Source: Cycloclasticus sp. (GTDB lineage: Bacteria > Pseudomonadota > Gammaproteobacteria > Methylococcales > Cycloclasticaceae). From it: DNA of 64,000 nucleotides. Position numbers and translations under genes: made by a program. Positions within the stretch are counted from its first letter, which is position 1. Each line of letters begins with the position of its first letter. Shown one piece after another: positions 19,797-39,380 of this stretch. Below the pieces are notes generated by a model that saw only the letters and a program-made list of their open reading frames with translations, searched no databases and had not been told where the DNA came from. The stretch covers positions 682,001-746,000 of the forward strand of contig JBFLJU010000001.1 in the NCBI GenBank assembly GCA_040743155.1, read 5' to 3'.

Positions 19797-21500
19797 TTAT
19801 TTTAGTAATAAGATGGCAATATTCGCCAATAGGCTTAACGTTGCAAGGCCTTTCCAAAATGCCAAAGGATTACGCTGTATCAGAGGCGTGTGTGCTATTT
19901 GAGTAAATTCTTTATTGGGGTATGACAGATCGTGAATGAATTCTGATATTTCTTCGTAACGTTTTGTTGGGTTTCTTTTGACGATTTTCCTGATGGCACC
20001 GTCCACCCAAAGTGGGATATCTGAGTCGATGTCTAACATTGAAATATACTGTAGTTTACTCAGTGCTTTTTCGCCGTATTTTTCTCCGAACGGTAGTTTG
20101 CTTGTAATCATTTCGTAGCTAATAACGCCTAATGCAAAGGCATCTGAACGGTAACTCGCTGGTTGGCCTAATAGGTATTCTGGTGCAGTATAATGTTGTG
20201 TTCCCAATAAGCTTAAGCGGTGTACTGGGCTTGATATTTCTTCTACGCCAGCTACTTTGGTTGAGCCAAAATCAATAATTTTTACCGTGCCTTGCGTATC
20301 AATAATGATATTTTCGGGCTTCAAATCTTGATGAATCATTTCCTTTCGGTGAAATGCTCTTAATCCACGGGCAATTTGTCGCACAATACCTCTAACATCG
20401 TGCAAGCTAGGCTGCGGATTGTCGCTCATCCAGTGCCTAAGAGTTTGTCCTTCGATGTACTCGGTCACGTAATAGAGAAAGCGGCGAGTTCTTGTTTGTT
20501 CAATGATTTTCAGCACATGGTTGCTATCAATACGACGCCCGACCCATTCTTCTTGTACGAACATATCCAAAAACGTTGGGTCGTCGACATAATTAACGGA
20601 AGGCGTTTTAATAACGACTTGTTGGCCTGTTTCTTCATCGGTAGCAAGATAAACCTGCGTCCGATTGCTGGCGTGTAACTCACGTTCGATACGGTAACCG
20701 TCCATCAGCATGCCCGCGTTTAAGTCAGGAGGAAAGGGGAGTTCCGTTAATTTACGATAAATCTCTTGTTCGTTAACTTGGGGTAACTGATTGAACCTAA
20801 CAATTTGGCAAGTCACATTATCGTCACTGCCGTTTTCCATGGCGAGAGAGGTTATTTCTCGTGCGGCGCGATCTAAGTTGTCGGTGTTGTCAGCATACTT
20901 AGCTAGCATAACGGCATCACTCACAAACTCGTGAACGCCATCGGTCGAGAATAAAAATACATCGCCTTCTTCCAATAAGAAATTGCTGTAATCAATCTCT
21001 AAATGTAGGTCGATGCCCATGGCACGAGTTAGGTAGTTTTTTTCTTTAGAAACCCAGAAACGATGATCGTCGGTGAGAAGCTCAAGCTTGTTATCACGTA
21101 TTCGATAAATACGGGTGTCACCGATATGAAACAAATGAACGGTAGAAGACTTAACGATCAACGCGCTCATGGTTGTCGCTAAGCCTTTATGATTGACACC
21201 GCCTTGTTGCGCCATACCGAGCATCCAGCGATTGGTCGCTATTAAGACCTTTTGTACGGACGTTTTAACGGTCCAAGAATCGGGCGTACAGTAGTAATCA
21301 CCTAGTAGGCTCTTCACGCACGATTCACTGGCGAGCTTGCCAGCATCGCAACCGCTAACCCCGTCAGCAATAACAACAGCAATCCCTTTTTGCTCTAAAA
21401 CTGGGGACTCAGGAAGTAAGACGCCGTAACTGTCTTGATTTTCTTCTTTCAGGCCTTTATCTGACGATTGGCCAAGGTCTATGAGCGCTTCTGATTCCAT
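19797..21500 (-). CDS. Fused PP2C-type phosphatase and Ser/Thr protein kinase, membrane-anchored
   Basis: The N-terminal 240 residues form a PP2C phosphatase ('ADGVSG', 'HIGDTRIYR', 'FSTDGVHEFV', 'GSDDNVTCQIV'). A Hanks-type kinase follows (about 255-520) with the ATP lysine in 'QVVIKTP', catalytic loop 'HQDLKPENI' (HQD in place of HRD) and 'DFGSTK'. A single C-terminal helix anchors it. The same fusion lies beside nasA and nirBD in Pseudomonas aeruginosa (PA1782), so the association is recurrent; its substrate is unknown. The ATG at 21500 is used; a TTG at 21533 overlapping the nasA stop would add 11 residues. It is in the nasA operon and so probably under the same promoter. Confidence 0.9.
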   Translation of the reverse strand: MESEALIDLGQSSDKGLKEENQDSYGVLLPESPVLEQKGIAVVIADGVSGCDAGKLASESCVKSLLGDYYCTPDSWTVKTSVQKVLIATNRWMLGMAQQGGVNHKGLATTMSALIVKSSTVHLFHIGDTRIYRIRDNKLELLTDDHRFWVSKEKNYLTRAMGIDLHLEIDYSNFLLEEGDVFLFSTDGVHEFVSDAVMLAKYADNTDNLDRAAREITSLAMENGSDDNVTCQIVRFNQLPQVNEQEIYRKLTELPFPPDLNAGMLMDGYRIERELHASNRTQVYLATDEETGQQVVIKTPSVNYVDDPTFLDMFVQEEWVGRRIDSNHVLKIIEQTRTRRFLYYVTEYIEGQTLRHWMSDNPQPSLHDVRGIVRQIARGLRAFHRKEMIHQDLKPENIIIDTQGTVKIIDFGSTKVAGVEEISSPVHRLSLLGTQHYTAPEYLLGQPASYRSDAFALGVISYEMITSKLPFGEKYGEKALSKLQYISMLDIDSDIPLWVDGAIRKIVKRNPTKRYEEISEFIHDLSYPNKEFTQIAHTPLIQRNPLAFWKGLATLSLLANIAILLLK

Positions 21501-21519
21501 TGTATGAGCTACTAAGTGA

Positions 21520-22992
21520 TTAAGTGACGTCAATTAGTTCTACTGTACCATCTTCAAGCACTTCAGCCGTTTGCCCCTTAGGTTCTTCTAGGAAGATAAG
21601 CATGAACAGCAAAACGACGCCAGCCGTCCCGCCAATTACCATAAAGAAAATTTGTGGAGAAACAAACGAAAGGACTGTTAAGAAGGTTAAACCACCGACA
21701 TTACCGTAGGCACCAACCATGCCGGCAACTTGCCCTGTCATACGGCGTTGAATTAAGGGTACCATTGCGTAAACGGCACCTGAACCACCTTTTGAAAACA
21801 AGCCGCACAAAATGGTAGAAGCGACGACTAGAGAAACCGCCCAAGTTTCACTGACTTGACCTAATAATAAGAAGGTGAGGGTGATACCTGAAAATAAAAT
21901 AACAAGAGATTTTTTTCGGCCGATCTTATCGCTCAACATGCCGCCCCCTGGGCGGGCGACTAAATTCATTACGGGGTAAATGGCCGCTAAAAGTCCTGCT
22001 GTAATAGGGGATAAACCAAACATATCGATATAAAACAAAGGCAACATTGAAACCAATGCTAATTCAGAACCAAATGTCACCATATAAGCCAAGTCTAAAA
22101 TAGCGACTTGTTTGAACTGGTAACGAAATAAATCAGGTACTTCTTTAGTGAATATATCTTTGTTAACGCGAATGATTTGTACGACTTGGTATAGGTACAC
22201 GGCGGCAATTGAACCGTATGCAATTAATTCCATTTGCTCAGTCAGCCAACCCATACCAGTAGGTGAAAGCTTCCAAGTTAATAGGGCAAGAGCAGCATAT
22301 ATTGGCATGCTCATAAGAATATAAAGAACGAGGTCGCCCTTGCTGGTGACTTCCATGCCACCTACCTTTTTAGGTTTGAAGTAAGTAGAACCTTTAGGTG
22401 TGTCCGTCACGCTAAAGTAGTAAAAGATACCATACACAAAAGCAATAACGGCTGTAATGCTTAAAGCATAGCGCCAACCGTCTTCACCGCCCAACCATAG
22501 CGCCAACGCAGGTAGAGCCATTGCTGAAGCGGCTGAACCAAAGTTACCCCAGCCACCGTAAATACCTTGTGCTATACCTGTTTGTCTTGCAGGGAACCAT
22601 TCACCAATCATGCGAATACCCACCACAAAGCCGGCGCCAACAAAACCGAGTAAGAAACGTGCTAAGGCAAGTTGTTCAAATGTTTGCGCCCATGCAAAGA
22701 AGAGGCATAAAAAGCTGGATAGTACTAAAATTCCTGAGAACATCCGGCGTGGCCCAAAACTATCGACCATCATGCCAACGATGATGCGTGCAGGTATGGT
22801 TAAAGCGACGTTTAATATAAGGAGTACGGAAACTTCTTGGCTTGTTAAGTTGAATACGTCACGAATAACAGACATTAAAGGCGCATGGTTAAACCAGACC
22901 ATAAAACTAATAAAGAATGCGAACCAAGTCGTGTGTAGAATGCGAATATTACCTTTAAAAGATAATAACTTTAATTTTTGCGTCATTGCCAT
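21520..22992 (-). CDS. nasA: Nitrate/nitrite MFS transporter (NarK/NasA type)
   Basis: The 490-residue protein has about 12 membrane helices and the nitrate-porter signatures 'GFVGAGFVVGIRMIGEWFP' with 'GGWGNFGSA' in helix 5 and 'GNVGGLTFL' in helix 11. The substrate arginine is in 'FVVGIRM'. It imports nitrate for assimilation. The frame is open to 23109, but the ATG at 22992 has CAGGGA six bases upstream and fits the family's N-terminus. A perfect sigma54-type promoter lies about 32 bases upstream, and the PP2C/kinase gene follows with overlap or a 19-base gap. Confidence 0.93.
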   Translation of the reverse strand: MAMTQKLKLLSFKGNIRILHTTWFAFFISFMVWFNHAPLMSVIRDVFNLTSQEVSVLLILNVALTIPARIIVGMMVDSFGPRRMFSGILVLSSFLCLFFAWAQTFEQLALARFLLGFVGAGFVVGIRMIGEWFPARQTGIAQGIYGGWGNFGSAASAMALPALALWLGGEDGWRYALSITAVIAFVYGIFYYFSVTDTPKGSTYFKPKKVGGMEVTSKGDLVLYILMSMPIYAALALLTWKLSPTGMGWLTEQMELIAYGSIAAVYLYQVVQIIRVNKDIFTKEVPDLFRYQFKQVAILDLAYMVTFGSELALVSMLPLFYIDMFGLSPITAGLLAAIYPVMNLVARPGGGMLSDKIGRKKSLVILFSGITLTFLLLGQVSETWAVSLVVASTILCGLFSKGGSGAVYAMVPLIQRRMTGQVAGMVGAYGNVGGLTFLTVLSFVSPQIFFMVIGGTAGVVLLFMLIFLEEPKGQTAEVLEDGTVELIDVT

Positions 22993-23023: not shown

Positions 23024-23039
23024 AGCAATAGCTGTGCCA
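23024..23039 (-). promoter_or_regulatory. Sigma54 promoter of nasA
   Basis: Read on the minus strand: TGGCAC-AGCTA-TTGCT, identical to the sigma54 -24/-12 consensus (TGGCAC-N5-TTGCW) with the required 10 bases between GG and GC. It would start transcription near 23012, about 20 bases before the nasA ATG. Together with the NtrC-like site at 23102-23118 it points to nitrogen control. Confidence 0.82.
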
Positions 23040-23101: not shown

Positions 23102-23118
23102 CGCACCAAAATGTTGCG
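23102..23118. promoter_or_regulatory. NtrC-type enhancer site
   Basis: CGCACCAAAATGTTGCG matches the NtrC consensus TGCACCAAAATGGTGCA at 14 of 17 positions. It lies about 70 bases upstream of the sigma54 promoter of nasA and about 130 bases upstream of that of nirB, typical enhancer distances. A further half-site TGCACC occurs at 23133-23138. Binding is inferred from sequence. Confidence 0.72.
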
Positions 23119-23233
23119 CTGTTAATTTATACTGCACCGCAATAAGGCGAGATATTGATTGTGATGCGCGGGCGGATAAGAAGTTTTGGGTTATTAATAT
23201 ATATATCAGTATGTTATGGGTCAACGTATCTGT

Positions 23234-23249
23234 TGGCATACAACGTGCT
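23234..23249 (+). promoter_or_regulatory. Sigma54 promoter of the nirB operon
   Basis: TGGCAT-ACAAC-GTGCT matches the sigma54 consensus at 9 of 11 fixed positions and keeps the GG and GC with 10 bases between. Start of transcription would be near 23260, about 33 bases before the nirB ATG. Weaker than the nasA promoter, but the divergent arrangement around an NtrC-like site supports it. Confidence 0.65.
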
Positions 23250-23292: not shown

Positions 23293-25821
23293 ATGAGTGA
23301 TAAAAAACAATTGGTTGTTATTGGCAATGGCATGGTGGGTCATAAGTTCCTACAGTCCATGACGCAAAGTGAGGCTATGCAAGATTATGAAATTACGACT
23401 TTTTGTGAAGAGACACGTCTTGCCTATGACCGTGTTCAACTAACGTCATATTTTAATGGTAAGACTGAAGATGATTTGTCACTTGTTGAGCCTGGTTTTT
23501 TTGAAGACAACAATATTACAGTCCACATGGGTGACCGTGCTTCGACCATTGATCGCAAAAGTAAAACGGTTACATCTGAAAACGGTATCAGTATTTCTTA
23601 TGACAAAATCGTTTTAGCGACGGGTTCTTTTCCTTTTGTACCGCCGATTCCTGGCCATGAAAGAGATAATTGTTTTGTCTACCGTACGATCGATGACTTA
23701 ATTGATATCACTAAAGCCGGTGAACAATCCAAGGTGGGTGTTGTTATTGGTGGTGGTTTGTTAGGGCTGGAGGCAGCAAAAGCGCTAAAGGACCTTGGTT
23801 TGAAAACTCATGTTGTTGAGTTTGCACCTCGCTTGATGGCTGTGCAGATTGATGATGGTGCTGGAGCAGTTTTACGCAAGAAGATTGAAGAGCTAGATGT
23901 AAGCGTTCATACGCAAAAAAATACCCAAGGCATTGTTGATGGTGAAGAATGCGTTCATCGCATGAACTTTGCAGATGGCACGCACATTGAAACAGACGTT
24001 ATTTTGTTTTCAGCGGGTATTCGCCCTCGTGATGATATTGCCCGCGATTGTGGTTTAACATTGGGTGAGCGAGGCGGTATCGTTGTTGATGATAACTGCC
24101 GTACGTCGGATGAAGATATCTATGCGATCGGTGAGTGTGCCTTATGGGAGGGTAAGATCTTTGGTCTTGTAGCGCCAGGCTATCAAATGGCTCAAGTGAC
24201 AGCTGATCAGCTGTCTTCGAAAGAGAACAGTTTTACCGGTGCAGATATGAGCACCAAGTTGAAATTGATGGGTGTGGATGTGGCCAGTATTGGTGATGCA
24301 CACGCAGCAACCGAAAAAGCCAAGGTTTATACTTATGTTAACGGCGCTGACGATGTGTATAAAAAAATCGTTGTTAGTGAAGATAATACTCGTTTACTAG
24401 GTGCTGTATTGATTGGCGACACCGTCGATTATGGTAATTTATTACAACTCAAGCTGAATGATATTCCGCTACCGGAATATCCAGACGCGCTTATTTTACC
24501 GCAGCGCGACGGTTCTGGCGCAACGGGTTTAGGTGTGGAAGCCTTACCTGATGCAGCACAAATTTGTTCGTGTTTTGATGTATCAAAAGGCGCTTTGTGT
24601 CAGGCAGTATCAGACGGTGCGACGACAATGGGTGCTCTTAAAGAGTGTACTAACGCAACAACCGGTTGTGGTGGTTGTACTGCTCTAGTCGGACAAGTTC
24701 TGAACAAAGAACTAGAAAAACTAGGCATGGATGTTAACACTGACCTGTGTGAGCATTTTGCCTACACTCGTCAGGAAATGTATCACCTTGTACGTGTTGG
24801 TGGCATTAAAACGTTTGATGAAATGATTGAAAAACACGGCAAAGGTCATGGCTGCGATATTTGTAAGCCGACAACGGCGTCCATTTTGGCGTCTTGCTGG
24901 AATGATTATGTGTTAGAAACGCCTCATGCTGGTTTACAAGACACGAATGATCGTTACCTTGCTAATATTCAAAAAAATGGCACGTACTCCATTGTTCCTC
25001 GTATTGCCGGTGGTGAAATTACGCCAGACAAGTTGATCGTTTTGGGTGAAGTGGGCAAAAAATATAATTTGTACACTAAAATTACCGGCGGTCAACGTGT
25101 GGATTTATTTGGCGCTCGCCAAGAAGAGCTTCCGCTTATTTGGAAAGAACTTGTCGATGCAGGTTTTGAAACGGGTCATGCTTATGGTAAATCACTGCGT
25201 ACCGTTAAGTCATGCGTTGGTAGTACATGGTGTCGTTACGGTGTTGCTGATAGCGTTACTACCGCCATTGAATTAGAAAATCGTTACAAGGGTTTACGCT
25301 CTCCACATAAATTAAAATTTGCTGTGTCAGGTTGTACGCGTGAATGTGCCGAAGCGCAAAGTAAAGACGTGGGCATTATTGCTACTGAAAACGGCTGGAA
25401 TTTATATTTATGTGGTAACGGCGGCATGAAGCCAAGGCACGCAGACTTGTTTGCAACGGGGCTTGATTACGAGACGATGATCAAATATATCGACCGTTTC
25501 TTGATGTTTTACGTTAAAACGGCAGACCGCTTACAACGTACATCTACCTGGATGATGAATTTAGAAGGTGGCTTAGATTATCTGCGTGAAGTGGTAATCG
25601 AAGATTCACTGGGCTTGGCTGAAACCTTTGAAGATGAGATGCAAACGGTTATCGATACCTACCAATGCGAATGGAAAACAACGGTTGAAAATGAAGAGAA
25701 ATCTAAATCATTTAACGCCTTTGTAAACTCTGATAAAGGCGATAGCCAAATCGTATTTGTTCCAGAGCGTGACCAAATACGTCCTGCGCGTAAAGAAGAA
25801 ATGACAGCGCAACTAAATTAA
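23293..25821 (+). CDS. nirB: NADH-dependent assimilatory nitrite reductase, large subunit
   Basis: The 842-residue enzyme has an N-terminal FAD site ('VVIGNGMVGHKF'), an NAD site ('VVIGGGLLGLEAAKAL'), a BFD-like [2Fe-2S] region ('CSCFDVSKGALC', 'TTGCGGC') and the C-terminal siroheme/[4Fe-4S] domain with ligands C641, C647, C681 and C685 ('CVGSTWC', 'CTREC'). It reduces nitrite to ammonium in the cytoplasm with NADH. Length is normal. First gene of nirB-nirD-phzF-like-narB-dmsBC-like, reading away from nasA. Confidence 0.97.
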   Translation: MSDKKQLVVIGNGMVGHKFLQSMTQSEAMQDYEITTFCEETRLAYDRVQLTSYFNGKTEDDLSLVEPGFFEDNNITVHMGDRASTIDRKSKTVTSENGISISYDKIVLATGSFPFVPPIPGHERDNCFVYRTIDDLIDITKAGEQSKVGVVIGGGLLGLEAAKALKDLGLKTHVVEFAPRLMAVQIDDGAGAVLRKKIEELDVSVHTQKNTQGIVDGEECVHRMNFADGTHIETDVILFSAGIRPRDDIARDCGLTLGERGGIVVDDNCRTSDEDIYAIGECALWEGKIFGLVAPGYQMAQVTADQLSSKENSFTGADMSTKLKLMGVDVASIGDAHAATEKAKVYTYVNGADDVYKKIVVSEDNTRLLGAVLIGDTVDYGNLLQLKLNDIPLPEYPDALILPQRDGSGATGLGVEALPDAAQICSCFDVSKGALCQAVSDGATTMGALKECTNATTGCGGCTALVGQVLNKELEKLGMDVNTDLCEHFAYTRQEMYHLVRVGGIKTFDEMIEKHGKGHGCDICKPTTASILASCWNDYVLETPHAGLQDTNDRYLANIQKNGTYSIVPRIAGGEITPDKLIVLGEVGKKYNLYTKITGGQRVDLFGARQEELPLIWKELVDAGFETGHAYGKSLRTVKSCVGSTWCRYGVADSVTTAIELENRYKGLRSPHKLKFAVSGCTRECAEAQSKDVGIIATENGWNLYLCGNGGMKPRHADLFATGLDYETMIKYIDRFLMFYVKTADRLQRTSTWMMNLEGGLDYLREVVIEDSLGLAETFEDEMQTVIDTYQCEWKTTVENEEKSKSFNAFVNSDKGDSQIVFVPERDQIRPARKEEMTAQLN

Positions 25822-25835
25822 GCGATAACAAACGG

Positions 25836-26195
25836 ATGAATACTCAAATGGCTAATGAATTGAATAATAATGAAGTTGATGTCTGCGCGTTAACGGACCT
25901 CACCGAAAATGCAGGTACAGCGGCACTTGTGGATGACGTGCAAATCGCTTTGTTTTACGTTAAACGAACACAGCAAGTGTTTGCCTTAGACAACTATGAC
26001 CCTTTTAGTGAAGCGAATGTGATATCTCGTGGCATCATAGGCAGTGTTGGTGATGACCTTGTTGTGGCTTCACCAATCTACAAACAGCACTTCAAGCTCG
26101 AAACTGGACAGTGCATTGAAGATGAAGATGTTTCCATTGCAGCTTATAAAGCACAAATAGTAAATGGCCGAGTGATAATCGGCTTAGCAAGTTAA
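25836..26195 (+). CDS. nirD: Nitrite reductase small subunit (Rieske-like)
   Basis: The 119-residue protein has the NirD fold with 'VDDVQIALFYVKRTQQVFALDNYDPFSEANVISRGIIG' type sequence and 'PIYKQHFKLETGQC'. As usual for NirD, the cluster-binding Cys-His pairs of true Rieske proteins are missing. It is the partner of NirB, 14 bases upstream. Start may be the ATG at 25836 or at 25848 (MANELNN). Confidence 0.92.
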   Translation: MNTQMANELNNNEVDVCALTDLTENAGTAALVDDVQIALFYVKRTQQVFALDNYDPFSEANVISRGIIGSVGDDLVVASPIYKQHFKLETGQCIEDEDVSIAAYKAQIVNGRVIIGLAS

Positions 26196-26209: not shown

Positions 26210-27124
26210 ATGACACCAATGTATTACACACTTGACGTTTTTACCGATGACATTTTTCAAGGCGCACAGATAGCGGTTTTTCCAAATGCAGAGGGGTTAT
26301 CTGAAGAAAAATTAGGCCGTATTGCCAATGAACTAAATTTGTCAGAGACGGTATTTATTTATCCACTAGACAAAAACGAAAATGAATTTAAAGTACGGAT
26401 TTTCTCACCAATGGGTGAAGTGGACTTTGCGGGTCACCCAATTTTAGCGATAGCAAATGTACTAGCAGAAACCGGACAAATTACGCTAGAGGGTGCTTAT
26501 ACCAGCATGCTTCTAAAGCAAAACAATCAAGATGTTGTAGCTAATATTTCAATGGATGACGAAGGGAAACGTTTTGTTCAGTTCACACTTCAAAGTACGC
26601 CAGTAGTTGACCGCTTTACACCGCCAGGTAGCGAATTGGCTAATTTATTGTCAATTGATGAAAGAGATATTGACCATACGCAGTACCATACTCGTTTAGT
26701 TTCCAGTGGTTTGCCTTATTTAATTGTCCCACTAAAGTCACAAGAAGCCGTTCGCAAAGCTCGTTTTGATGTTAAAGCATGGGGTGAATCCAGTGCACCT
26801 GCTATGGCAGCACAAGAAATTTTTGTTTTCAGTGCAAAAACTGATTCAAGTGATAGTAACTTCCATGGACGTTTACTTGGCCCAAGTGTTGGTGACCATG
26901 AAGATCCTCCAATTGGCTCAGTAATGCCTGCATTTACTGGCTATTTAGCATCGCACGAGCACGTGAGAGAAGGTACGTACAGTTTTGCTATTGATCGAGG
27001 TACGTTAGAAACGCGTAGAAGCCTTCTACATATTGAGATGGACAAACGAACAGGGCGACCAATAACACTTAGGGTTGGTGGTGATTCAGTATTCGTTAGC
27101 AAAAATGAATTATTAATGAGTTAA
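26210..27124 (+). CDS. PhzF family isomerase-like protein in the nitrate operon
   Basis: The 304-residue protein matches the PhzF/YddE fold: 'YTLDVFTDDIFQGAQIAVFPNAEGL', 'NLSETVFI' with the catalytic-type glutamate, 'FSPMGEVDFAGHPILAIANVL' and 'FTGYLASHE'. Relatives isomerise or epimerise small acids, but most have no known substrate. It lies 14 bases after nirD and 13 bases before narB with good spacing, so it is part of the nitrate operon. I have no established role for it there. Confidence 0.87.
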   Translation: MTPMYYTLDVFTDDIFQGAQIAVFPNAEGLSEEKLGRIANELNLSETVFIYPLDKNENEFKVRIFSPMGEVDFAGHPILAIANVLAETGQITLEGAYTSMLLKQNNQDVVANISMDDEGKRFVQFTLQSTPVVDRFTPPGSELANLLSIDERDIDHTQYHTRLVSSGLPYLIVPLKSQEAVRKARFDVKAWGESSAPAMAAQEIFVFSAKTDSSDSNFHGRLLGPSVGDHEDPPIGSVMPAFTGYLASHEHVREGTYSFAIDRGTLETRRSLLHIEMDKRTGRPITLRVGGDSVFVSKNELLMS

Positions 27125-27137
27125 GTGGAACTCAAAT

Positions 27138-29342
27138 ATGCTATTCGGACGTCACAAAAAGAACCCTATCAAGATGGTCGACAAAAAAGTCGACAAATGG
27201 ACCTATGCGACATGTGGTTATTGCTCAGTAGGTTGTTCAATTGAAATAGGTACAAATGCCGACGGTAAAGTTGTCGGTTCAAGAGGAGTTGGTGGAGCAG
27301 ATGTTAATCGCGGCAAACTTTGCGTAAAAGGCATATTCGAACACGAGGTTTTTGGCTCATCGGGCAGGGGTGATGAACCGCTCATTCGCGATAGTATTCA
27401 AGAAGATTACCGTAAAACTGATTGGGATAATGCTGCCACTGTGATGGCTAGCAATATCAACCGTATTCAAGAAACACATGGTCGCGACTCGTTTGCAGTT
27501 GTATCAACCGGCCAGTTGTTAACAGAAGAATTTTATACCTTAGGTAAATTAACCCGAGGTGTTATCGGCACAAATAATTACGATGGCAACACAACCTTGT
27601 GTATGGCATCGGCTGTATCAGGTTATAAGCGCTCATTTGGTTCAGATGGCCCACCGGGCTGTTACGAAGATTTTGAATACACCGAGTGTCTGATGGCTTG
27701 GGGTTCGAACTTGCCTGAACAACATCCCATTATTTATTGGCGCTTACAAGAAGCGCGCGAAAAACGTGATTTCCCGTTAATTGTTGTTGATCCACGTGTC
27801 ACCATGCTGGCACAAAAAGCCGATATACACTTGGCGATCACACCGGGTACGGACGTGGTGCTTCAGAATGCCTTAATGTATGTTATTTTGACCGAAGGCC
27901 TAGAAGACCGTCATTACATTGATGCAAATACGGTAGGGCTGGAAGAGCTAGAAGCAGAAGTACAGAATTTTGATCCAACGACTGCGGCGGCCATTTGTGG
28001 TATTGATGAAGATACCATCCGTAGCGTTGCACGTATTTATGCAAAAGCCGGTTCTGCGATGAGTATTTGGACGATGGGTATTAACCAAAGTACACACGGC
28101 TCAGACGGCGTTGTCGGTATTAATAATTTAAATTTGATTACTGGCAATGTGGGTAAAAAAGGCGGTACAAGCTTGTCTATTACCGGACAGTGCAATGCCA
28201 TGGGCACGCGTGAATGGTCATCATGTTCCGGTTTGCCCGGTTACCGTGCCCTTGAAAAAGAAGAAGACCGCAAAGAAATAGGTGAGTTTTGGAATGTAGA
28301 CCCGGACTTTTTTCCGACGAAAAGAGGCCTTGCTCAAACCGATATATTTTCTGCGATAGAAACCGGTCAAATCAAAGGGATGTGGTTGGTGGCGACGAAC
28401 CCAATGACATCAATGCCCAATACCGAGCGTACTCGTAAAATACTTGAAAAGCTCGACTTCTTAGTGGTTCAAGACAGCTACGCTGATGTCGAAACGACGC
28501 AATATGCTCATCTTTACCTTCCAGCGGCAACGTGGGCGGAAAAAGAGGGTGTTTTTACTAATACAGAGCGCCGTGTGAATATTGTTCGTAAAGCAACGAA
28601 GACGTACGGTAATTCGAAATCAGATTTTGATATATTTAACCTATTGGCGAAGCACTTTGCAGCTAGCGAAAAGATGAATTTCCCAGATAAGCCGGCAGAT
28701 GCTTTTGAAGAAATGAAAGCGCTTTCTAAAGGACGCTTAGTTGATATTTCAGGTATGAATCACGATCTAATTGAAAAGCAACGTGGTATCCAGTGGCCTT
28801 ACACAGAAGAGCAAGCCAATAAAGGCGAGGTGCCGCCCAAAGGTGGGAAGCGTTTATATACAGAGCCCGCTACATTCCGTCATGCTGATGGTATGGCAAA
28901 GCTGATACCGTTGCCCTTTATTAATAATAACGAAGTGCCGGATGAGAAGTTCCCCTTTTGGCTAAATACAGGCCGTTTGGTAGAGCACTTCCACACGCGC
29001 ACTAAAACAGGCAAATTAAGTAATACGAATAAGTACAGCCCCATTCCGTTTATGGAAATAAACCCTGATGCCGCGAGCGATCTTGGGATCAGGCAAGGGG
29101 AGTATGTTCGCTGTATATCACGGCGCGGTGACGCGGTAGTGATGGCTATGTTAACGCAGCGCGTACCCAGGAATATGGTGTTTATTCCATTCCATTATTT
29201 TGACTGTGTCAATCGCTTAACACTTGGGCTGTTAGACCCACATTCGCGCCAACCAGCGTATAAACAATCTGCCATTACGATTGAAAGATTAGAAGATCAA
29301 CAAGCAGCTGCGCAGCTTAATATGGAAATGCGCAGCTTTTAA
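27138..29342 (+). CDS. narB: Assimilatory nitrate reductase catalytic subunit (NarB/NasC type, Mo-bis-MGD)
   Basis: The 734-residue enzyme has an N-terminal [4Fe-4S] site (C26, C29, C33, C62) with the electron-transfer lysine K64, and the molybdenum ligand Cys155 in 'LCMASAV', followed by 'GPPGCYEDFEYTECL' as in cyanobacterial NarB and bacterial NasA/NasC. It ends soon after the 'FHYFDC...LDPHSRQP' motif and lacks the C-terminal [2Fe-2S] extension of Klebsiella NasA, matching NarB length (about 730). No Tat signal is present, so it works in the cytoplasm. Its partner seems to be the next gene. The ATG at 27138 or at 27174 (MVDKKVDK) could be the start. Confidence 0.92.
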   Translation: MLFGRHKKNPIKMVDKKVDKWTYATCGYCSVGCSIEIGTNADGKVVGSRGVGGADVNRGKLCVKGIFEHEVFGSSGRGDEPLIRDSIQEDYRKTDWDNAATVMASNINRIQETHGRDSFAVVSTGQLLTEEFYTLGKLTRGVIGTNNYDGNTTLCMASAVSGYKRSFGSDGPPGCYEDFEYTECLMAWGSNLPEQHPIIYWRLQEAREKRDFPLIVVDPRVTMLAQKADIHLAITPGTDVVLQNALMYVILTEGLEDRHYIDANTVGLEELEAEVQNFDPTTAAAICGIDEDTIRSVARIYAKAGSAMSIWTMGINQSTHGSDGVVGINNLNLITGNVGKKGGTSLSITGQCNAMGTREWSSCSGLPGYRALEKEEDRKEIGEFWNVDPDFFPTKRGLAQTDIFSAIETGQIKGMWLVATNPMTSMPNTERTRKILEKLDFLVVQDSYADVETTQYAHLYLPAATWAEKEGVFTNTERRVNIVRKATKTYGNSKSDFDIFNLLAKHFAASEKMNFPDKPADAFEEMKALSKGRLVDISGMNHDLIEKQRGIQWPYTEEQANKGEVPPKGGKRLYTEPATFRHADGMAKLIPLPFINNNEVPDEKFPFWLNTGRLVEHFHTRTKTGKLSNTNKYSPIPFMEINPDAASDLGIRQGEYVRCISRRGDAVVMAMLTQRVPRNMVFIPFHYFDCVNRLTLGLLDPHSRQPAYKQSAITIERLEDQQAAAQLNMEMRSF

Positions 29343-29368
29343 TAGCTAGGTAAAAAACCAATACCCTT

Positions 29369-31258
29369 ATGTTTGAAGTTAGAAGTGATGAACCAAAGTA
29401 TGCGTTTCTTTGGGATAAAGAGACGAAAGCAAAAAACCTATATGGCGACTCCATTGAGTTAACGTCAGATGAGGACGATTTGCATGGCGTTAGTTTAAAT
29501 ATCAATGGCGATGCAGCCTTAGGTGAAAATCCAAATCGCTATAAGCAGCATGGTTTTTACCTAAATGCTGATAATTGCATTGGTTGCCACGCTTGTGAAG
29601 CAGCCTGTAGTGAAAAAAATGACAACCCCGGGCATATTGCGTTTCGTTCCGTAGGTTATGTAGAAGGTGGTACCTATCCAGAGTATCAGCGTCTGAATAT
29701 ATCAATGGCGTGTAACCATTGTGACGACCCTGTTTGCTTAAAAGGCTGCCCAACGCGCGCGTATACAAAATATGCCGAGTATGGCGCGGTACTGCAAGAC
29801 CCAGATATTTGTTTTGGTTGTGGTTATTGCACATGGGTTTGTCCATACAACGCACCGCAACTTGACCCTGTTAAGGGTGAGGTCAGCAAATGTAATATGT
29901 GTGTAGATCGTTTGGAAGTAGGACTCAAACCCGCTTGTGTATCGGCCTGCTTGGGTAACGCACTTGACTTTGGTGTGATCGAAAATGTGCCAGAAAACCG
30001 TGCCGAGTGCAAAACAGAAATCCCTGGATTTCCAACGACAGACATCACGCACCCAAACATTCGTTTTCAGCAATCACGCCAAAATAAGCGTGAAATGACA
30101 CGCACGGATTCAATGCCACTTAAGTATCACAAAGATGAAGAGGCGGGCAAATACAAACCGGTAGTTGACGAAAAGCACGGGCTTGAAAAGCAGTGGAACT
30201 GGCGAGCTTTGTTGATGACGCATGAAAGCTCCCACGTGATTTTTACACTCGCAACGCAGGCTATTTTAGGTGCATTTTTGATGTTGGTGTTGGGTCATAT
30301 GACAGGTTCTGACGCCGTATTAGCAATTCAATCATCCAGTGCCTATATGCCATTATTGGTTGTTATGACTATAGTGCTGACGGTTGGGCTTTATAAATTG
30401 AATATGCATTTAGGTAAACCGCATCGTTTTTATCGTGGCTTTTACAACTTACGTCATTCACCAGTAAGCCGTGAGATTGCGGGTGTCAGCCTGTTTTATA
30501 CCAGTTTGCTAGGGTTTGTTTTTTTTAGCTTTTTTGAAGTCGATATATTCATCGCTTTATTCGCTATATTAGGTGTGGTCAGTGGACCATTAGGTTTGTT
30601 TTATATGTACAAACTTTACCGCATTAAAGCGCGACCTTTTTGGGATCACTGGCAAACAGCAACTTCTTTTGTCGGCACTTGTTTTAGTTTAGGTGCTCTG
30701 GTTATTGGATTAGTGGTGCTGGTTGATGGCTCGCTTGTGGACTCATTTTATACAAGCTTAGTCGTATTGCTATTAGTGGGGCTTTCACTCGAAGCTATTG
30801 GACACATCGCCCACGCGAATGACCTTCAAGGAGGCGAAGGCGAAGGCAGTGCTTCTTGGTATTTACAAACAACGCGATTTGCATGGCCGTACATTATCAG
30901 TAATGTATTACTGGGCGTATCCATTGTGGCGACTTGTTTCTTAATTGACTCGCCATCGTCAGTCATTGGCTGGGGTATGCTGACGGTATCCTTATTAGCA
31001 ACGGCGGTTATCAGGCGTTCATTGTTTTTTGCATTGGTAATTCCAACCACCATGCCTGGTGCATTCTTTTGGAAAAATAAAGGTTTCGAGGAACATGCGA
31101 AGGAAACGGGTTTAGCCAATATGCAACAGGTAGGCGTTCAATATGAGCAGCACCGTAGTTTCAAGCTTGGTGAATTAATAGAAACCATTAAAACAACCAC
31201 AGCTAAAGAAGCGATTGACCAAGTGAAAGGGATTTTTGATTGGAAATCTGTTAAATAG
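29369..31258 (+). CDS. Fused DmsB-like ferredoxin and DmsC-like quinol-oxidising membrane anchor
   Basis: The 629-residue protein joins two subunits that are separate in DMSO reductase. Residues about 60-240 hold sixteen cysteines for four [4Fe-4S] clusters: 70/73/76/80, 115/118/123/127, 148/151/154/158 and 175/178/190/194, in the DmsB/NrfC order. Residues about 280-600 form some eight membrane helices of DmsC type ('LGKPHRFYRGFYNLRHSPVSREI' is typical). There is no signal peptide, so the ferredoxin part should be cytoplasmic, on the side of NarB and NirBD. It lies 26 bases after narB. The likely role is to pass electrons from quinol to the nitrate reductase; this is inference from context. 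Confidence 0.88.
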   Translation: MFEVRSDEPKYAFLWDKETKAKNLYGDSIELTSDEDDLHGVSLNINGDAALGENPNRYKQHGFYLNADNCIGCHACEAACSEKNDNPGHIAFRSVGYVEGGTYPEYQRLNISMACNHCDDPVCLKGCPTRAYTKYAEYGAVLQDPDICFGCGYCTWVCPYNAPQLDPVKGEVSKCNMCVDRLEVGLKPACVSACLGNALDFGVIENVPENRAECKTEIPGFPTTDITHPNIRFQQSRQNKREMTRTDSMPLKYHKDEEAGKYKPVVDEKHGLEKQWNWRALLMTHESSHVIFTLATQAILGAFLMLVLGHMTGSDAVLAIQSSSAYMPLLVVMTIVLTVGLYKLNMHLGKPHRFYRGFYNLRHSPVSREIAGVSLFYTSLLGFVFFSFFEVDIFIALFAILGVVSGPLGLFYMYKLYRIKARPFWDHWQTATSFVGTCFSLGALVIGLVVLVDGSLVDSFYTSLVVLLLVGLSLEAIGHIAHANDLQGGEGEGSASWYLQTTRFAWPYIISNVLLGVSIVATCFLIDSPSSVIGWGMLTVSLLATAVIRRSLFFALVIPTTMPGAFFWKNKGFEEHAKETGLANMQQVGVQYEQHRSFKLGELIETIKTTTAKEAIDQVKGIFDWKSVK

Positions 31259-32030: not shown

Positions 32031-34400
32031 TCAAGCCCCTTGTTTTTCAAGGGGCTTTTTTAATGAATTGAGAACACTATCTGCTAGCCCCAATAGTGTT
32101 TCTATATTGAGACAAAATTCCTTATGTGCAAGAGGGATGTCTTTCATATCACCCATCCGGAGAGATATTTCAAGTTGTTTTGACGATAATTTAAGTAACG
32201 GTGTTCCACAATATGCGGCAGATCCATGTACTTTATGAACAATCTCGGCAGCATCTTTATAGCTACTTTGTTTAACCAATTTAGAAACGCTATCGTTTTG
32301 TTTAGCCAATTCACTGAAAAATTTCTCAAGCATTAGGAGCATGAATACGGGGTCTGCATTCATGCTAGCTTTAGCTATGTCATAATCAAAAGGTTTGTTT
32401 GACAGACATGAGCGACTATTTTTTTGTGAGGATACGAAGGGTTGCGTTTCGCGATCGTGTTCATTGAGAAGCTGCTCAATCAATGTAAAAAATTGAACTT
32501 GGTCAATGGGCTTTATTAGATAGCCATCAAATGAGCTTATGTGGTGTGCTTTTTCTTCCCCTGATGTAATGTGAGCAGTGATAGCGACGGCGGGCGTTTT
32601 ATAGTTCGGTTTTGTCGGTTTGTTGCGAATCTCAAACAACACTTCATTGCCCATTTTTAAGGGCATTCTTAAGTCCAATAGCATTAAGTCAAAGTCCTGC
32701 TGGTTAGCTAAATCAAGGGCTTGTTGCCCATCATTTACACAAGTAACGTTGGCATGTTGACGTTCTAATAAATTACTTAGTAACAAGCGGTTTATTTCAT
32801 TGTCATCAGCAACTAATATTTTCTTTGCTGTTAAGTCAGGTAAGGGTGCAATATAGCTGCTAGGCCGACTCATTATGCTATAGCTGTCTTTAACATTAGT
32901 GAACGGTAAGGTAAACGTAAAGGTAGATCCTTGGCCTATTTTACTTTTGACATCAATTGTTCCATGAAGAGCATCAATAATTCGTTTGGTAATGACGAGC
33001 CCTAAACCTGTGCCTTGCCCACTGGTGAGGTTGCTGAGTTGAGAATACTCTTTGAAAAGTTGTTGGATATTCTCTTCAGTGATTCCAATACCACGATCGC
33101 AAATACTTATTTCTAGCTGATTGTTTTTTATTGGGCTAATCTTCAACAGGATAGTGACAGTCGAATGCTGACTGAATTTGATAGCATTGCCAATAAGGTT
33201 GGTGAGTATTTGGCCAAACTTTACGCAATCTTGGTTAATAAAATCAGGTGCATTATTATCATGTTGGTAGTCAAGTGTTACCCCGTTTTGATCAGCCTGA
33301 GTAGATAAAAGTAGTAAGGTATCTTCGATGGTTTTTTTGAGTTGGAAATTACTTTTATTGATAATAATTTTACCGGCTTCAAGTTGGGCAAAATCAAGTA
33401 CTTCATTGATGATAGTGTGCAGGTTCTTTGATGAAAGATGTGAGGCGTTAACTAACTTAATTTGATCGTTATCGAGTTCAGTTTTTTGAATAATTTCGAG
33501 AAAGCCGATGATCCCATTTAATGGAGTGCGTATTTCGTGACTGATATGTGAAATAAAACGTGACTTTGCCTCAACTGATTTAACAATCTCTGCTTGAGCA
33601 GAAAAGAGTTTATCGTTTTGTAGTCGTAATTCGTGGGTAGCCTCTCGAACTTTTTTCTCCTGTATTTGTTGGTGCCCTTTGATTTGGTGGGCCATTTTAT
33701 GAACACCGTTTGCAAGAATGGCAATCTCATCTTTTTTGCTGCTGATGGTACTGATTCTGGGAGGCGTGTAATTACCGTGGGTAATATGATTAACATCAGT
33801 TGTTAATTGAAGAATCGGTCGGGCAATAGTAGTACTGATGAATTTTGCTATAAACCCGATAATAATTAGTAGGAGCAAAGTGATGTAACAGGTGTTTAAT
33901 AAAATATCTAGTTGGCGCTGTTGGATGGCGTTGTATGAGAAAGTGAGGGTTACATAACCAATAGTTTCGTCTGTTTCTGTAAGCCGACCAACCAATAAAT
34001 CATCGAACTCATCAGCATGGCTTATGGGTTTAAGCTGGATGGATTGGACGATTTTTTTAGATGGTTTTGAAATCAACGTTGGTGTAGCGATTTCGCTGGT
34101 TGCGTACGCTAGAGTAGTGCCTCGTTTACTCGTTATGCTAATGGATATGAGGTCTGGTTCATTAATAGCGGCGCTAATGATGTTGTTCAGAGCGTCTAAA
34201 TCACCAGAGAAGACACCATTAACACTGGATTCAGCGACTGAATTTGCTAAGTTCTCATTTGTTTTATGTAATAAATCATACATATCAGTTAAACGAGTAG
34301 AGGTCAGGTAAGTCGCGAGAATAACAGCGAGTGCGGCGGCGGGGATGACCCCTAAAAGTAGTAATTTATTTTTTAACTGGAACCTATCGAGTAGACTCAT
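32031..34400 (-). CDS. BarA-like tripartite hybrid sensor histidine kinase (HAMP-HisKA-HATPase-REC-HPt)
   Basis: The 789-residue protein has a membrane helix (about 13-34), a periplasmic sensor of about 135 residues, a second helix (168-188), HAMP, a coiled segment, HisKA with phospho-acceptor H288 ('SHEIRTPLNG'), HATPase ('NLIGNAIKFS', 'DRGIGI', 'GTGLGL'), a receiver with D576 ('LLDLRMP') and a C-terminal HPt with H722 ('VHKVHGSAAYCG'). This is the BarA/ArcB-type phosphorelay layout. The periplasmic part does not let me name a ligand. It overlaps the preceding binding-protein gene by 17 bases, suggesting that protein may feed it its signal. No response regulator is adjacent. Confidence 0.92.
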   Translation of the reverse strand: MSLLDRFQLKNKLLLLGVIPAAALAVILATYLTSTRLTDMYDLLHKTNENLANSVAESSVNGVFSGDLDALNNIISAAINEPDLISISITSKRGTTLAYATSEIATPTLISKPSKKIVQSIQLKPISHADEFDDLLVGRLTETDETIGYVTLTFSYNAIQQRQLDILLNTCYITLLLLIIIGFIAKFISTTIARPILQLTTDVNHITHGNYTPPRISTISSKKDEIAILANGVHKMAHQIKGHQQIQEKKVREATHELRLQNDKLFSAQAEIVKSVEAKSRFISHISHEIRTPLNGIIGFLEIIQKTELDNDQIKLVNASHLSSKNLHTIINEVLDFAQLEAGKIIINKSNFQLKKTIEDTLLLLSTQADQNGVTLDYQHDNNAPDFINQDCVKFGQILTNLIGNAIKFSQHSTVTILLKISPIKNNQLEISICDRGIGITEENIQQLFKEYSQLSNLTSGQGTGLGLVITKRIIDALHGTIDVKSKIGQGSTFTFTLPFTNVKDSYSIMSRPSSYIAPLPDLTAKKILVADDNEINRLLLSNLLERQHANVTCVNDGQQALDLANQQDFDLMLLDLRMPLKMGNEVLFEIRNKPTKPNYKTPAVAITAHITSGEEKAHHISSFDGYLIKPIDQVQFFTLIEQLLNEHDRETQPFVSSQKNSRSCLSNKPFDYDIAKASMNADPVFMLLMLEKFFSELAKQNDSVSKLVKQSSYKDAAEIVHKVHGSAAYCGTPLLKLSSKQLEISLRMGDMKDIPLAHKEFCLNIETLLGLADSVLNSLKKPLEKQGA
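32033..32061. terminator. Terminator overlapping the 3' end of the hybrid kinase gene
   Basis: AAGCCCCTTG (32033-32042) pairs with CAAGGGGCTT (32048-32057), a 10-bp stem with a T-rich loop, followed on the plus strand by a T-run. It serves the unknown gene ending at 32004. The left part of the stem also encodes the last codons of the kinase gene on the opposite strand, so the two features share sequence. Confidence 0.85.
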
Positions 34401-35340
34401 AAGTCATCAGTTGTTCTTTTAATTCGTTGTCACGCGGAAAGTGCAAGTTTAAACTTTTGGCAACATTTCTGTTGCTGATAACATCAAAATACTTTGGATA
34501 AATAACGTTGTTAGTGTTGGGCGAATGAGCATTATCTAAGTGTAGTATGCTTTCAGCTAGATGACGAGAAAGTTGTTCTAAACTGCTGACTGTGCCAGCG
34601 ATAGCCCCAGCCTTTATAAAACCCTTTGAAAAACCGAGGATTGGCGTTCCATAGCGGTAGCTGGTTAACAGAATTTGCGGGAGAGAAGCCGCGTTATAAA
34701 TTTTGGTGTCAGCGATCGCTAAAATGATATCAGATGATTTTGAAACGTCAGCTATTTGATAGCGAACATTTTCAGAGCTCGTCATGAACTCGTTAATTAT
34801 TAATTGCGTGCCATTAGCGATGTTCTTTAATGGTTGTAGGTGCGTTTCTGATTGCTTAGTGATGATGACGCCAATATTCTTAAACGCAGGGTTTATTAAT
34901 TTTATTAAGTTTAGCTGTCTCGTTGGCGGTTGGTCTAAGACAAAGAAACGGTGTTTAGCTAGGCTTTCCGTGCAGTGTGGTAGACACGGGGCAAAGTTTC
35001 TAGAGTGCGATAATGTGGTTAATGTGTGAAAAGTTGTTGTCTGTATGTTAGATGCTATTATCGTCCTAGCAGTACTATTGTCTAGGTTCACGATAAGGTC
35101 TGGCTGTTTTTTAGTAAGCGTAGGTATGGATAAGGAGCTTGCTGCTATTCTGCTTAAACTAAGATCAGGATCAATGGCTAGTTGCTTGGAGAGCAGATTG
35201 GCAAAAGTAGTTTGATAGTTACTATCCTTATCGTAAATAAGCACAACGTTTTGTGCCAATGAAAGTGCTGGCATACCTAATAACGTAACGCTCAATAAAA
35301 CGTTTTGTATTATTATTCTAACGGATGAGTTAATTAGCAC
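34384..35340 (-). CDS. Periplasmic ABC_sub_bind-type solute-binding protein
   Basis: The 318-residue protein has a signal peptide ('NVLLSVTLLGMPALSLAQ') and a two-lobed binding fold with 'VVLIYDKDSNYQTTFANLL', 'NPAFKNIGVI', 'ILLTSYRYGTPILGFSKGFIKAGAIAGTVSSLEQLSRHLAE' spread along it and the closing 'VISNRNVAKSLNLHFP', which resembles the PF04392 family. No permease or ATPase gene is near. It overlaps the TonB receptor gene (35330) by 11 bases and the kinase gene by 17, so it is translated together with them. A sensory role rather than transport is inferred. Confidence 0.8.
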   Translation of the reverse strand: MLINSSVRIIIQNVLLSVTLLGMPALSLAQNVVLIYDKDSNYQTTFANLLSKQLAIDPDLSLSRIAASSLSIPTLTKKQPDLIVNLDNSTARTIIASNIQTTTFHTLTTLSHSRNFAPCLPHCTESLAKHRFFVLDQPPTRQLNLIKLINPAFKNIGVIITKQSETHLQPLKNIANGTQLIINEFMTSSENVRYQIADVSKSSDIILAIADTKIYNAASLPQILLTSYRYGTPILGFSKGFIKAGAIAGTVSSLEQLSRHLAESILHLDNAHSPNTNNVIYPKYFDVISNRNVAKSLNLHFPRDNELKEQLMTYESTR

Positions 35341-37246
35341 GGTATTCCACCTTGAAATAAATTAGGTTATCGGCTGTAGCAAGTTGGTGAAAGTCGCTGT
35401 TTCTATTGAGTGCTAATTGGAAGTCTAAGCTAATATCAATGGATTGTTTGTTAGCAAGTTTAATCAGTTTACCCGCTGAAAGGTCGATACGTTGGAATGA
35501 AGTTTGCGGGTCATTTTGTCCGCCCAAATATTGCATTTCACTCATGTAGTAATATTCAAACCCACTGTACCAACCGTTGTTATATTGGTGTGAAAATAAC
35601 AGGTTGAAGTTGTGCTCAGGTATAGACTTTTTTAAACGCTGATTGGTTGCTTGATGAACGTGTGTGAAGGCGTAACCTAAATGGAGAATGTTATTGCGAT
35701 GAGGTCGGTAGTTTATCTCAAGTTCTGCGCCGACTGTTTTGGCGCTATCTGTATTATCTAAGACGGCAATAGTGTTGTCTGAATTAGTATCGATTAATTG
35801 TTTATAGTGGTTCCTGAATAGCTTTACATCGGTATTAAACGTGTTTAGCCAATACACGCCATGATAACCCGCTTCAATGGAGGTGACAGTTTCGGGCCCT
35901 AAGTTGTCCGCAGAAACCTGCATTGCTGTGTCAAAAAAGATGATATCGTGCTCTTCAGTAATTACTGGGATCCTAAATGCTTTTGTAGCGGTTAATCGAT
36001 AGGAATGGTGAGGAGATGTTAAATAATTAAATGAAATTCGCGGGGAAGAATGAGTGCCTGATAATTGATCACTTTCAATCAGTGCACCGCTGTTGAGAAT
36101 GAGTTTGTTGGTTAGTTGTGTTTCCAAATTACCAAATAAACGCATGCGTGTATTGCTCTTTGTACTAGTTGAGTTAAGTCTAAAAGGCACGTAAACAGAT
36201 TCATGTATAGCTGCAACCCCCCAAACTAAACGCTGTGTATCGTTTAACGTTAAAAGGTGTTCAACGTCAAGGTTCCAAGTTGTAGACTCGCTCGTGGCGT
36301 CAAGTATTCCTAAAACGGTATTGTATTTGTCTTTTCCGTCAAAATGATGAAAGGAAAGGCGGGTGCTAATTAGTTGTTCATCATATGTTTGATGCTCCCA
36401 AAAAAGTTGGGCGAAATGAGTTGATTCATTACGGTCACGTTTGGGGTCGAAAGCTAGAGCGGGTGAAAGTGGCTCTGGGTTTTGCGTTTGGCGAATGGAG
36501 TCCAGTGCCGAAAAGTTAAGTTGTAAGGTGTTGCGTGAATCTACACGTAAATCGACGCGAGCGTACAGAGCATCTTTACTAAAATCATCAGCAAGGTTCT
36601 TATAGCCTTCGCTTTTCTCCGTCGATAAACTCACCCGGTAATATAATTTGCCATCGGGTTGTGAGCCTGCATAACGAAAAAAAGCTTGTTCAGATTGGTT
36701 GTTATTTAGTCTAAAGCGTGTCGTTAAACTAGGTGCTTGCGATGCATGGATCGTTGTTATGTTGATAACGCCTTGAAATGCATTGGCGCCAAATGAAGCG
36801 TTATTGGGACCTCTAACAATTTCAATTCGTTCAATATCGTCAAGTGATATGGGCAGGGCGCTCCAAATAACACCGCCAAATATCGGTGAATAAACAGAGC
36901 TCCCATCAATAACAACTTGCACACCCTGTGGGAATTCAGAAGTAAGCCCTTGGTAAGCAACAACGGGAAAGTTACCACGAGAATTGCCGACCTGCATGCC
37001 AGGTACGAGTCTGAATATTTCTGATACTTGAGTCGCGCCAGAAGCCTTAATTAACGCGCGGTCGATAACGGTAATGCTTGCTGGTGCCTCTGCCTGTAGT
37101 TGGGGTAACTTAGACGCCGATAACACAATAGGCATAATTTGGCTGTCGAAAAGAATACCTTCTTGCACTGGAGAGAAAGCGCTCGAAATGCTTACTGATA
37201 GGCTCAGTAATATAAAGGTTAAAAGTTTTGTTTTAGAGCTATCCAT
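35330..37246 (-). CDS. TonB-dependent outer-membrane receptor, copy 3 (most diverged)
   Basis: The 638-residue protein has a signal peptide, the plug start 'PIVLSASKLPQLQAEAPASITVIDR', 'FRLVPGMQVG', 'DDIERIEIVRGPNNASFGANAFQGVINI' and a beta-barrel ending 'IYFKVEYRAN', with alternating aromatic strand pattern to the end. It is clearly related to the two genes to its right but differs more than those two do from each other. The substrate is unknown; 'QGVQVVIDGSSVYSPIFGG' is plug-typical. It overlaps the binding-protein gene by 11 bases. Confidence 0.9.
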   Translation of the reverse strand: MDSSKTKLLTFILLSLSVSISSAFSPVQEGILFDSQIMPIVLSASKLPQLQAEAPASITVIDRALIKASGATQVSEIFRLVPGMQVGNSRGNFPVVAYQGLTSEFPQGVQVVIDGSSVYSPIFGGVIWSALPISLDDIERIEIVRGPNNASFGANAFQGVINITTIHASQAPSLTTRFRLNNNQSEQAFFRYAGSQPDGKLYYRVSLSTEKSEGYKNLADDFSKDALYARVDLRVDSRNTLQLNFSALDSIRQTQNPEPLSPALAFDPKRDRNESTHFAQLFWEHQTYDEQLISTRLSFHHFDGKDKYNTVLGILDATSESTTWNLDVEHLLTLNDTQRLVWGVAAIHESVYVPFRLNSTSTKSNTRMRLFGNLETQLTNKLILNSGALIESDQLSGTHSSPRISFNYLTSPHHSYRLTATKAFRIPVITEEHDIIFFDTAMQVSADNLGPETVTSIEAGYHGVYWLNTFNTDVKLFRNHYKQLIDTNSDNTIAVLDNTDSAKTVGAELEINYRPHRNNILHLGYAFTHVHQATNQRLKKSIPEHNFNLLFSHQYNNGWYSGFEYYYMSEMQYLGGQNDPQTSFQRIDLSAGKLIKLANKQSIDISLDFQLALNRNSDFHQLATADNLIYFKVEYRAN

Positions 37247-37272
37247 GACTGCTAAATAATAGAAACATCCTG

Positions 37273-39318: not shown

Positions 39319-39380
39319 TACGAATCTCTTCTTTTGGATTTTTTCAATATTAGCATGATGTTAAGGAAATACTGTATTAA

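Follow-up and report, generated by a model that had tools for sequence, protein, structure and literature searches.

Organization of the narB-dmsBC locus

The window considered here is a 64,000-nucleotide (nt) stretch of contig JBFLJU010000001.1 from a Cycloclasticus-like host, a marine oil degrader whose genome is complete and 2.56 Mb in size, and it contains an operon in the order nirB-nirD-phzF-narB-dmsBC, from which narK and a kinase/phosphatase gene diverge. Our subject is the last two genes of this operon, narB and dmsBC, which encode a candidate membrane-bound, quinol-fed nitrate reductase. They are two adjoining open reading frames (ORFs) of 734 and 629 residues, found on the same strand and spaced by 26 nt, as the first-pass annotation of this DNA had described.

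27138-29342, + strand: narB, catalytic subunit of 734 residues, a molybdenum-bis(pyranopterin guanine dinucleotide) (Mo-bisPGD) enzyme (Pfam, motifs and alignment)
29369-31258, + strand: dmsBC, DmsB-DmsC fusion of 629 residues, electron-transfer and membrane-anchor subunit in a single chain (Pfam, hydropathy and cysteines)

Identity of the catalytic subunit

The 734-residue protein is composed of the Pfam domains Molybdop_Fe4S4, Molybdopterin, and Molydop_binding, and is without a C-terminal BFD domain. The residues on which an assignment to the NarB/NasC type had earlier been based, these being C26, C29, C33, and C62 of the N-terminal [4Fe-4S] cluster, K64, and the Mo ligand C155, are all present and invariant across 37 orthologues, but they cannot tell nitrate reductases and cytoplasmic formate dehydrogenases apart. 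What does separate the two is Met156, which directly follows the Mo-ligand Cys155 as in nitrate reductases (formate dehydrogenases have a histidine there), together with a T-G-Q-x-N-A-M-G-x-R-E block in its nitrate reductase form. Moreover, C155, M156, D170, M313, Q351, and R358 are invariant in the reductase orthologues, and these we take to be the counterparts of Cys140, Met141, Asp155, Met308, Gln346, and Arg354 in D. desulfuricans NapA.

Scoring against NCBIfam placed the Fdh-alpha model TIGR01591 on top (553 bits with a cut-off of 666), with NF047855 for NasC (499 versus 1100 bits) and NF041323 (470 versus 1000 bits) also unmatched, and no model was exceeded. Since the host's own canonical NasA likewise falls below the NasC cut-off, this model is a narrow one. 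The family models being ambiguous, it is the residues (the Cys-Met pair and TGQxNAMGxRE) that decide for a nitrate reductase. In a maximum-likelihood tree, which excluded B. subtilis NasC and cyanobacterial NarB, the reductase clade is monophyletic (100/99) on a long stem and groups with Nas and Nap (98/95), away from the formate dehydrogenases, as the sister of Nas and Nap together and not nested in NasA. Because of this placement, the catalytic subunit is on present sequences best called a sister family beside Nas/Nap, and the NarB/NasC label of the first-pass annotation is not retained.

As the top NCBIfam score belongs to a cytoplasmic formate dehydrogenase model, and a formate dehydrogenase is also the closest PDB entry by sequence, we considered whether the pair might be a formate:quinone oxidoreductase. 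Apart from the score lying under the family cut-off and the position in the tree, the alignment puts Met156 and Thr349 where formate dehydrogenases have a histidine and an arginine with catalytic roles. Furthermore, the operon partners are NarK and NirBD, and an NAD-type formate dehydrogenase is encoded separately in the host genome. On motifs, tree, and operon context we reject a formate dehydrogenase identity for the catalytic subunit, and we regard a formate:quinone oxidoreductase as extremely improbable. As a separate observation, the reductase gene in one single-contig genome (G034) is split by an apparent frameshift, this being either a sequencing error or the mark of a pseudogene.

Domains, topology, and putative quinol site of the fusion protein

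The second gene of the pair can be divided as follows.

29546-29989, + strand: DmsB-like domain for four [4Fe-4S] clusters, residues 60-207, with 16 conserved cysteines (TIGR02951 match over residues 60-207, below cut-off; cysteine conservation)
30236-31042, + strand: DmsC-like eight-helix membrane domain, residues 290-558 (PF04976, hydropathy, AlphaFold helices, and weak Foldseek matches)
30407-30475, + strand: predicted quinol site H347, S364, and E369 in an Fe-S side loop (invariant in 56/56 homologues; equivalents of E. coli DmsC His65, Ser82, and Glu87, as listed in a section of PMC8076601)

Pfam recognizes Fer4_11 and DmsC (PF04976, 64 bits against a cut-off of 22) in this protein, while the curated DmsB model TIGR02951 yields 162 bits, short of its cut-off of 214. 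The sixteen Fe-S cysteines are kept in all 56 fusion homologues (C127 in 55 of them) and eight hydrophobic segments can be made out in the hydropathy profile of the membrane part, both in good agreement with the sixteen cysteines and about eight DmsC-like helices read from the sequence at the outset. Additional conserved parts of about 58 residues at the N-terminus and about 70 residues at the C-terminus flank these domains. In the AlphaFold model, the membrane helices mostly have a predicted local distance difference test (pLDDT) value above 90, and the best Foldseek matches of the membrane domain are to ActC of alternative complex III, though these are weak (all E > 0.001); the predicted structure contributes only that the helices look NrfD-like.

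With regard to topology, a twin-arginine translocation (Tat) motif is absent from 71/71 reductases and 112/112 fusion proteins, as claimed earlier for the two proteins of the window. Lysine and arginine residues in the three inner loops of the Fe-S side number 11.8 on average, as against 0.9 on the other side, with this bias seen in each of the 56 homologues and being the reverse of the charge distribution in E. coli DmsC. Because the positive charges lie on the Fe-S side and no Tat motif is found, both the Fe-S domain and the reductase should be cytoplasmic, which is the predicted orientation that the first-pass annotation had proposed.

According to a section of a review on NrfD-like proteins (PMC8076601), the quinol-site residues of E. 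coli DmsC include His65, Ser82, and Glu87, with replacement of His65 blocking quinol oxidation. A fourth residue in the site list of that section, Ser62, is represented by Leu or Ser in the fusion homologues. It could be argued that the fusion is a mere anchor wiring the enzyme to ferredoxin or another soluble donor, with the quinol site now a relic, given that known Nas enzymes use soluble donors and that many membrane-domain residues vary between homologues. However, H347, S364, and E369 have stayed invariant despite the divergence of the membrane domain overall, and we find such an arrangement quite improbable.

Pairing of the two genes and their distribution

Our main sample comprised 229 Gammaproteobacteria genomes, with the fusion found in 39 (about 17%) and the reductase clade in 38. 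All fusions in this sample are at 52% identity or higher and make up a sharply bounded family. The reductase lies 2-656 nt upstream of the fusion in 37 of the 40 fusion copies, which rules out chance adjacency of the two genes, and among the three unpaired copies, two involve contig ends (G187 and G186). In the third (G015), the fusion is unlinked and the reductase sits directly behind nirB-nirD, both genes being kept though apart. Another collection provided 80 further loci, in 74 of which the reductase is just upstream (about 70-90% identity); each of the remaining six starts at a contig end or close to one, and in one of these a transposase separates the fusion from that end. Two full-length fusions from other classes of the phylum also stand behind the reductase. 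The pairwise locus distances of reductase and fusion correlate (r = 0.79). Judging by these comparisons, the two genes have long formed a fixed unit.

Among named organisms, the closest relatives of the fusion come mostly from Cycloclasticus (75-85%), and no full-length fusion was found among plasmid records. A DmsA partner occurs at none of the fusion copies examined, and in the main sample the fusion almost always stands behind the NarB-like reductase in the way the first-pass annotation had assumed; a DMSO reductase identity was ruled out on this ground. The pair is common and widespread, and not an oddity of this genome.

Regulation and neighbouring genes

Other features of the operon and the divergent genes are given below.

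23293-25821, + strand: NirB, NADH-dependent nitrite reductase large subunit (NF011565 at 1354 bits and TIGR02374 at 1113 bits, both above cut-off)
25836-26195, + strand: NirD, Rieske-type small subunit of nitrite reductase (profile matches)
26210-27124, + strand: PhzF-family protein (Pfam; recurrent in loci)
21520-22992, - strand: NarK-family nitrate/nitrite transporter (TIGR00886, above cut-off); the ORF opens at 23109, with the ATG at 22992 the likelier start
19797-21533, - strand: PP2C phosphatase/Ser-Thr protein kinase fusion (Pfam; recurrent beside narK)
23234-23249, + strand: sigma-54-type promoter of nirB-nirD-phzF-narB-dmsBC, TGGCATACAACGTGCT (equivalent site in 27/30 loci)
23024-23039, - strand: sigma-54-type promoter of narK, TGGCACAGCTATTGCT (the only exact match within the window)
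23133-23149, + strand: NtrC-like site, TGCACCGCAATAAGGCG, 9/12, weak by itself (consensus match)

Upstream of nirB, a sigma-54-type promoter is found in 27 of 30 loci, compared with 0.5% of shuffles, and an NtrC-like site matching at least 10 of 12 positions in 14 of 30, compared with 4% of shuffles. Because this promoter precedes the operon in so many of the loci, we take it as indicating nitrogen control. Moreover, canonical NasA was not found in 13 of the 20 carrier genomes examined, and NasA, NarG, and NapA were all not found in four of these (G157, G056, G064, and G461), which often leaves the pair as the sole candidate for nitrate assimilation. Both reductases occur in one operon, nirB-nirD-nasA-narB-dmsBC, in genome G009.

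Regarding the neighbours, a PhzF-family gene is placed between nirD and narB in many Cycloclasticus, Methylococcales, and Porticoccaceae loci, though we know of no role for this protein in nitrate assimilation. The PP2C phosphatase/Ser-Thr kinase fusion recurs beside narK in nitrate assimilation clusters, and likewise in a nas cluster on a Methylocystis plasmid, and a post-translational control of nitrate uptake is possible. Just downstream of the operon (32031-41402) are three tandem TonB-dependent receptors, an ABC-type substrate-binding protein, and a hybrid histidine kinase with an Hpt domain. A scan of the region around the operon with Rfam gave no matches.

Proposed function and mechanism

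We propose, with a probability of about 0.8, that the pair is a two-chain membrane-anchored quinol:nitrate oxidoreductase, which faces the cytoplasm and serves nitrate assimilation under nitrogen control. Comparison of sequences provides the domain make-up, the near-obligate pairing, the clade, the topology signal, the conserved residues, and the promoter. Quinol as donor, nitrate as substrate, the direction of flow, and the absence of proton pumping are what we infer. The earlier suggestion of a quinone-linked nitrate assimilation at the inner face of the membrane thus finds support in the pairing, the inverted topology, the invariant quinol-site residues, and the sigma-54 promoter.

Mechanistically, quinol oxidation would take place at H347, S364, and E369, close to the face of the DmsC-like domain that is turned to the cytoplasm, and two electrons would travel through five [4Fe-4S] clusters, four in the DmsB-like domain and one in the catalytic subunit, to reach the Mo (C155). 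Nitrate imported by NarK would be reduced to nitrite at the Mo centre, and the nitrite to ammonium by NirBD with NADH. Release of the quinol protons and consumption of those needed for nitrate would occur on one side of the membrane, and the step should therefore be electroneutral. By this route, the first two of the eight electrons would cost a quinol and not NADH.

Several points weigh against this proposal. AlphaFold gives the Fe-S domain low confidence (<50), the positive-inside rule is statistical in nature, and the sigma-54 and NtrC sites were recognized by consensus, in 30 loci that are mutually related. In addition, the host also carries a canonical nirB-nirD-nasA operon (genome positions 637437-642949, - strand), whose NasA has 893 residues and a C-terminal BFD [2Fe-2S] domain, plus NarGHI, in a NarGHJI respiratory nitrate reductase operon at genome positions 412059-418786 that is followed by a PpiC-like protein, so the need for the pair is not obvious, and its knockout here may look silent.

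Alternatively, the pair might be a respiratory or redox-balancing nitrate reductase, by which quinol oxidation at the inner face sheds electrons at low oxygen and NirBD removes the nitrite, with assimilation being secondary. The canonical NirBD-NasA operon of the host could then serve assimilation, and NirB of the narB-dmsBC operon is of the E. coli type, used in E. coli for nitrite disposal. On the other hand, a sigma-54 promoter and NtrC-like sites precede the narB-dmsBC operon while none were found at the canonical operon of the host, NarGHI or Nap is available for respiration in many carrier genomes, and the NirB partner is of the Nas type in some other genomes. We thus consider a respiratory role unlikely, and an assimilatory quinol:nitrate oxidoreductase remains our preferred assignment.

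In their survey, Wells et al. (2020; PMC7331816) stated that four-cluster subunits and membrane anchors are not associated with any member of the Nas/Nap/AioA/cytoplasmic formate dehydrogenase clade. The reductase clade contradicts this in about 17% of the Gammaproteobacteria genomes sampled. We found no account of the pair in the open-access literature (subscription papers being mostly outside this coverage), and the available part of the NrfD-like review (PMC8076601) names no such complex. Judged by sequence, we rate the pair as known modules in an undescribed combination and orientation, with a distinct catalytic clade.

Beyond this locus, we lean slightly towards a widespread unnamed family of quinol:nitrate oxidoreductases that lets oxidisers of methane, sulfur, and hydrocarbons, in which electrons enter largely at the quinone pool, carry out the first step of nitrate assimilation without NADH by drawing on the respiratory chain. 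If this is true, methanotrophs, sulfur oxidisers, vent and sponge symbionts, and oil degraders would have their nitrogen assimilation tied to the quinone pool, growing on nitrate would come at a different energy cost, and the anchor gene may often be mistaken for that of a DMSO reductase.

Comparison with known systems

Textbook assimilatory nitrate reductases receive their electrons from ferredoxin, flavodoxin, or NADH. In common with NasA, NarB, and NasC, the reductase of the pair is a predicted cytoplasmic Mo-bisPGD enzyme with one [4Fe-4S] cluster, Cys-Met at the Mo, a GQxNAMGxRE motif, and no Tat signal, encoded in an operon with NirBD and NarK. In contrast to these enzymes, it belongs to a separate long-stem clade, lacks the C-terminal BFD domain, and stays below the NasC equivalog cut-off, and its putative partner is a quinone-type membrane subunit and not ferredoxin, flavodoxin, or an NADH flavoprotein.

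With NarGHI, the pair would share quinol-fed nitrate reduction at the cytoplasmic side and a four-cluster electron-transfer unit, as in the beta subunit. Unlike the pair, NarG is an Asp-ligand enzyme, the anchor NarI holds haem b, and energy is conserved by a redox loop. The sulfite dehydrogenase SoeABC also faces the cytoplasm. It belongs to the NrfD-like group and has the DmsC-type quinone residues His65/Glu87 (a section of PMC8076601), but oxidises sulfite and reduces quinone, is of a different catalytic family, and has separate B and C chains. Closest in its modules is E. coli DmsABC, with a DmsB-type four-cluster domain, a DmsC-type eight-helix quinol anchor, and the His65/Ser82/Glu87 positions (same section). 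Here, however, B and C are fused and carry extra terminal parts, the charge distribution is reversed, Tat export is not predicted, and the catalytic partner is Nas-like, whereas DmsA is Tat-exported and faces the periplasm.

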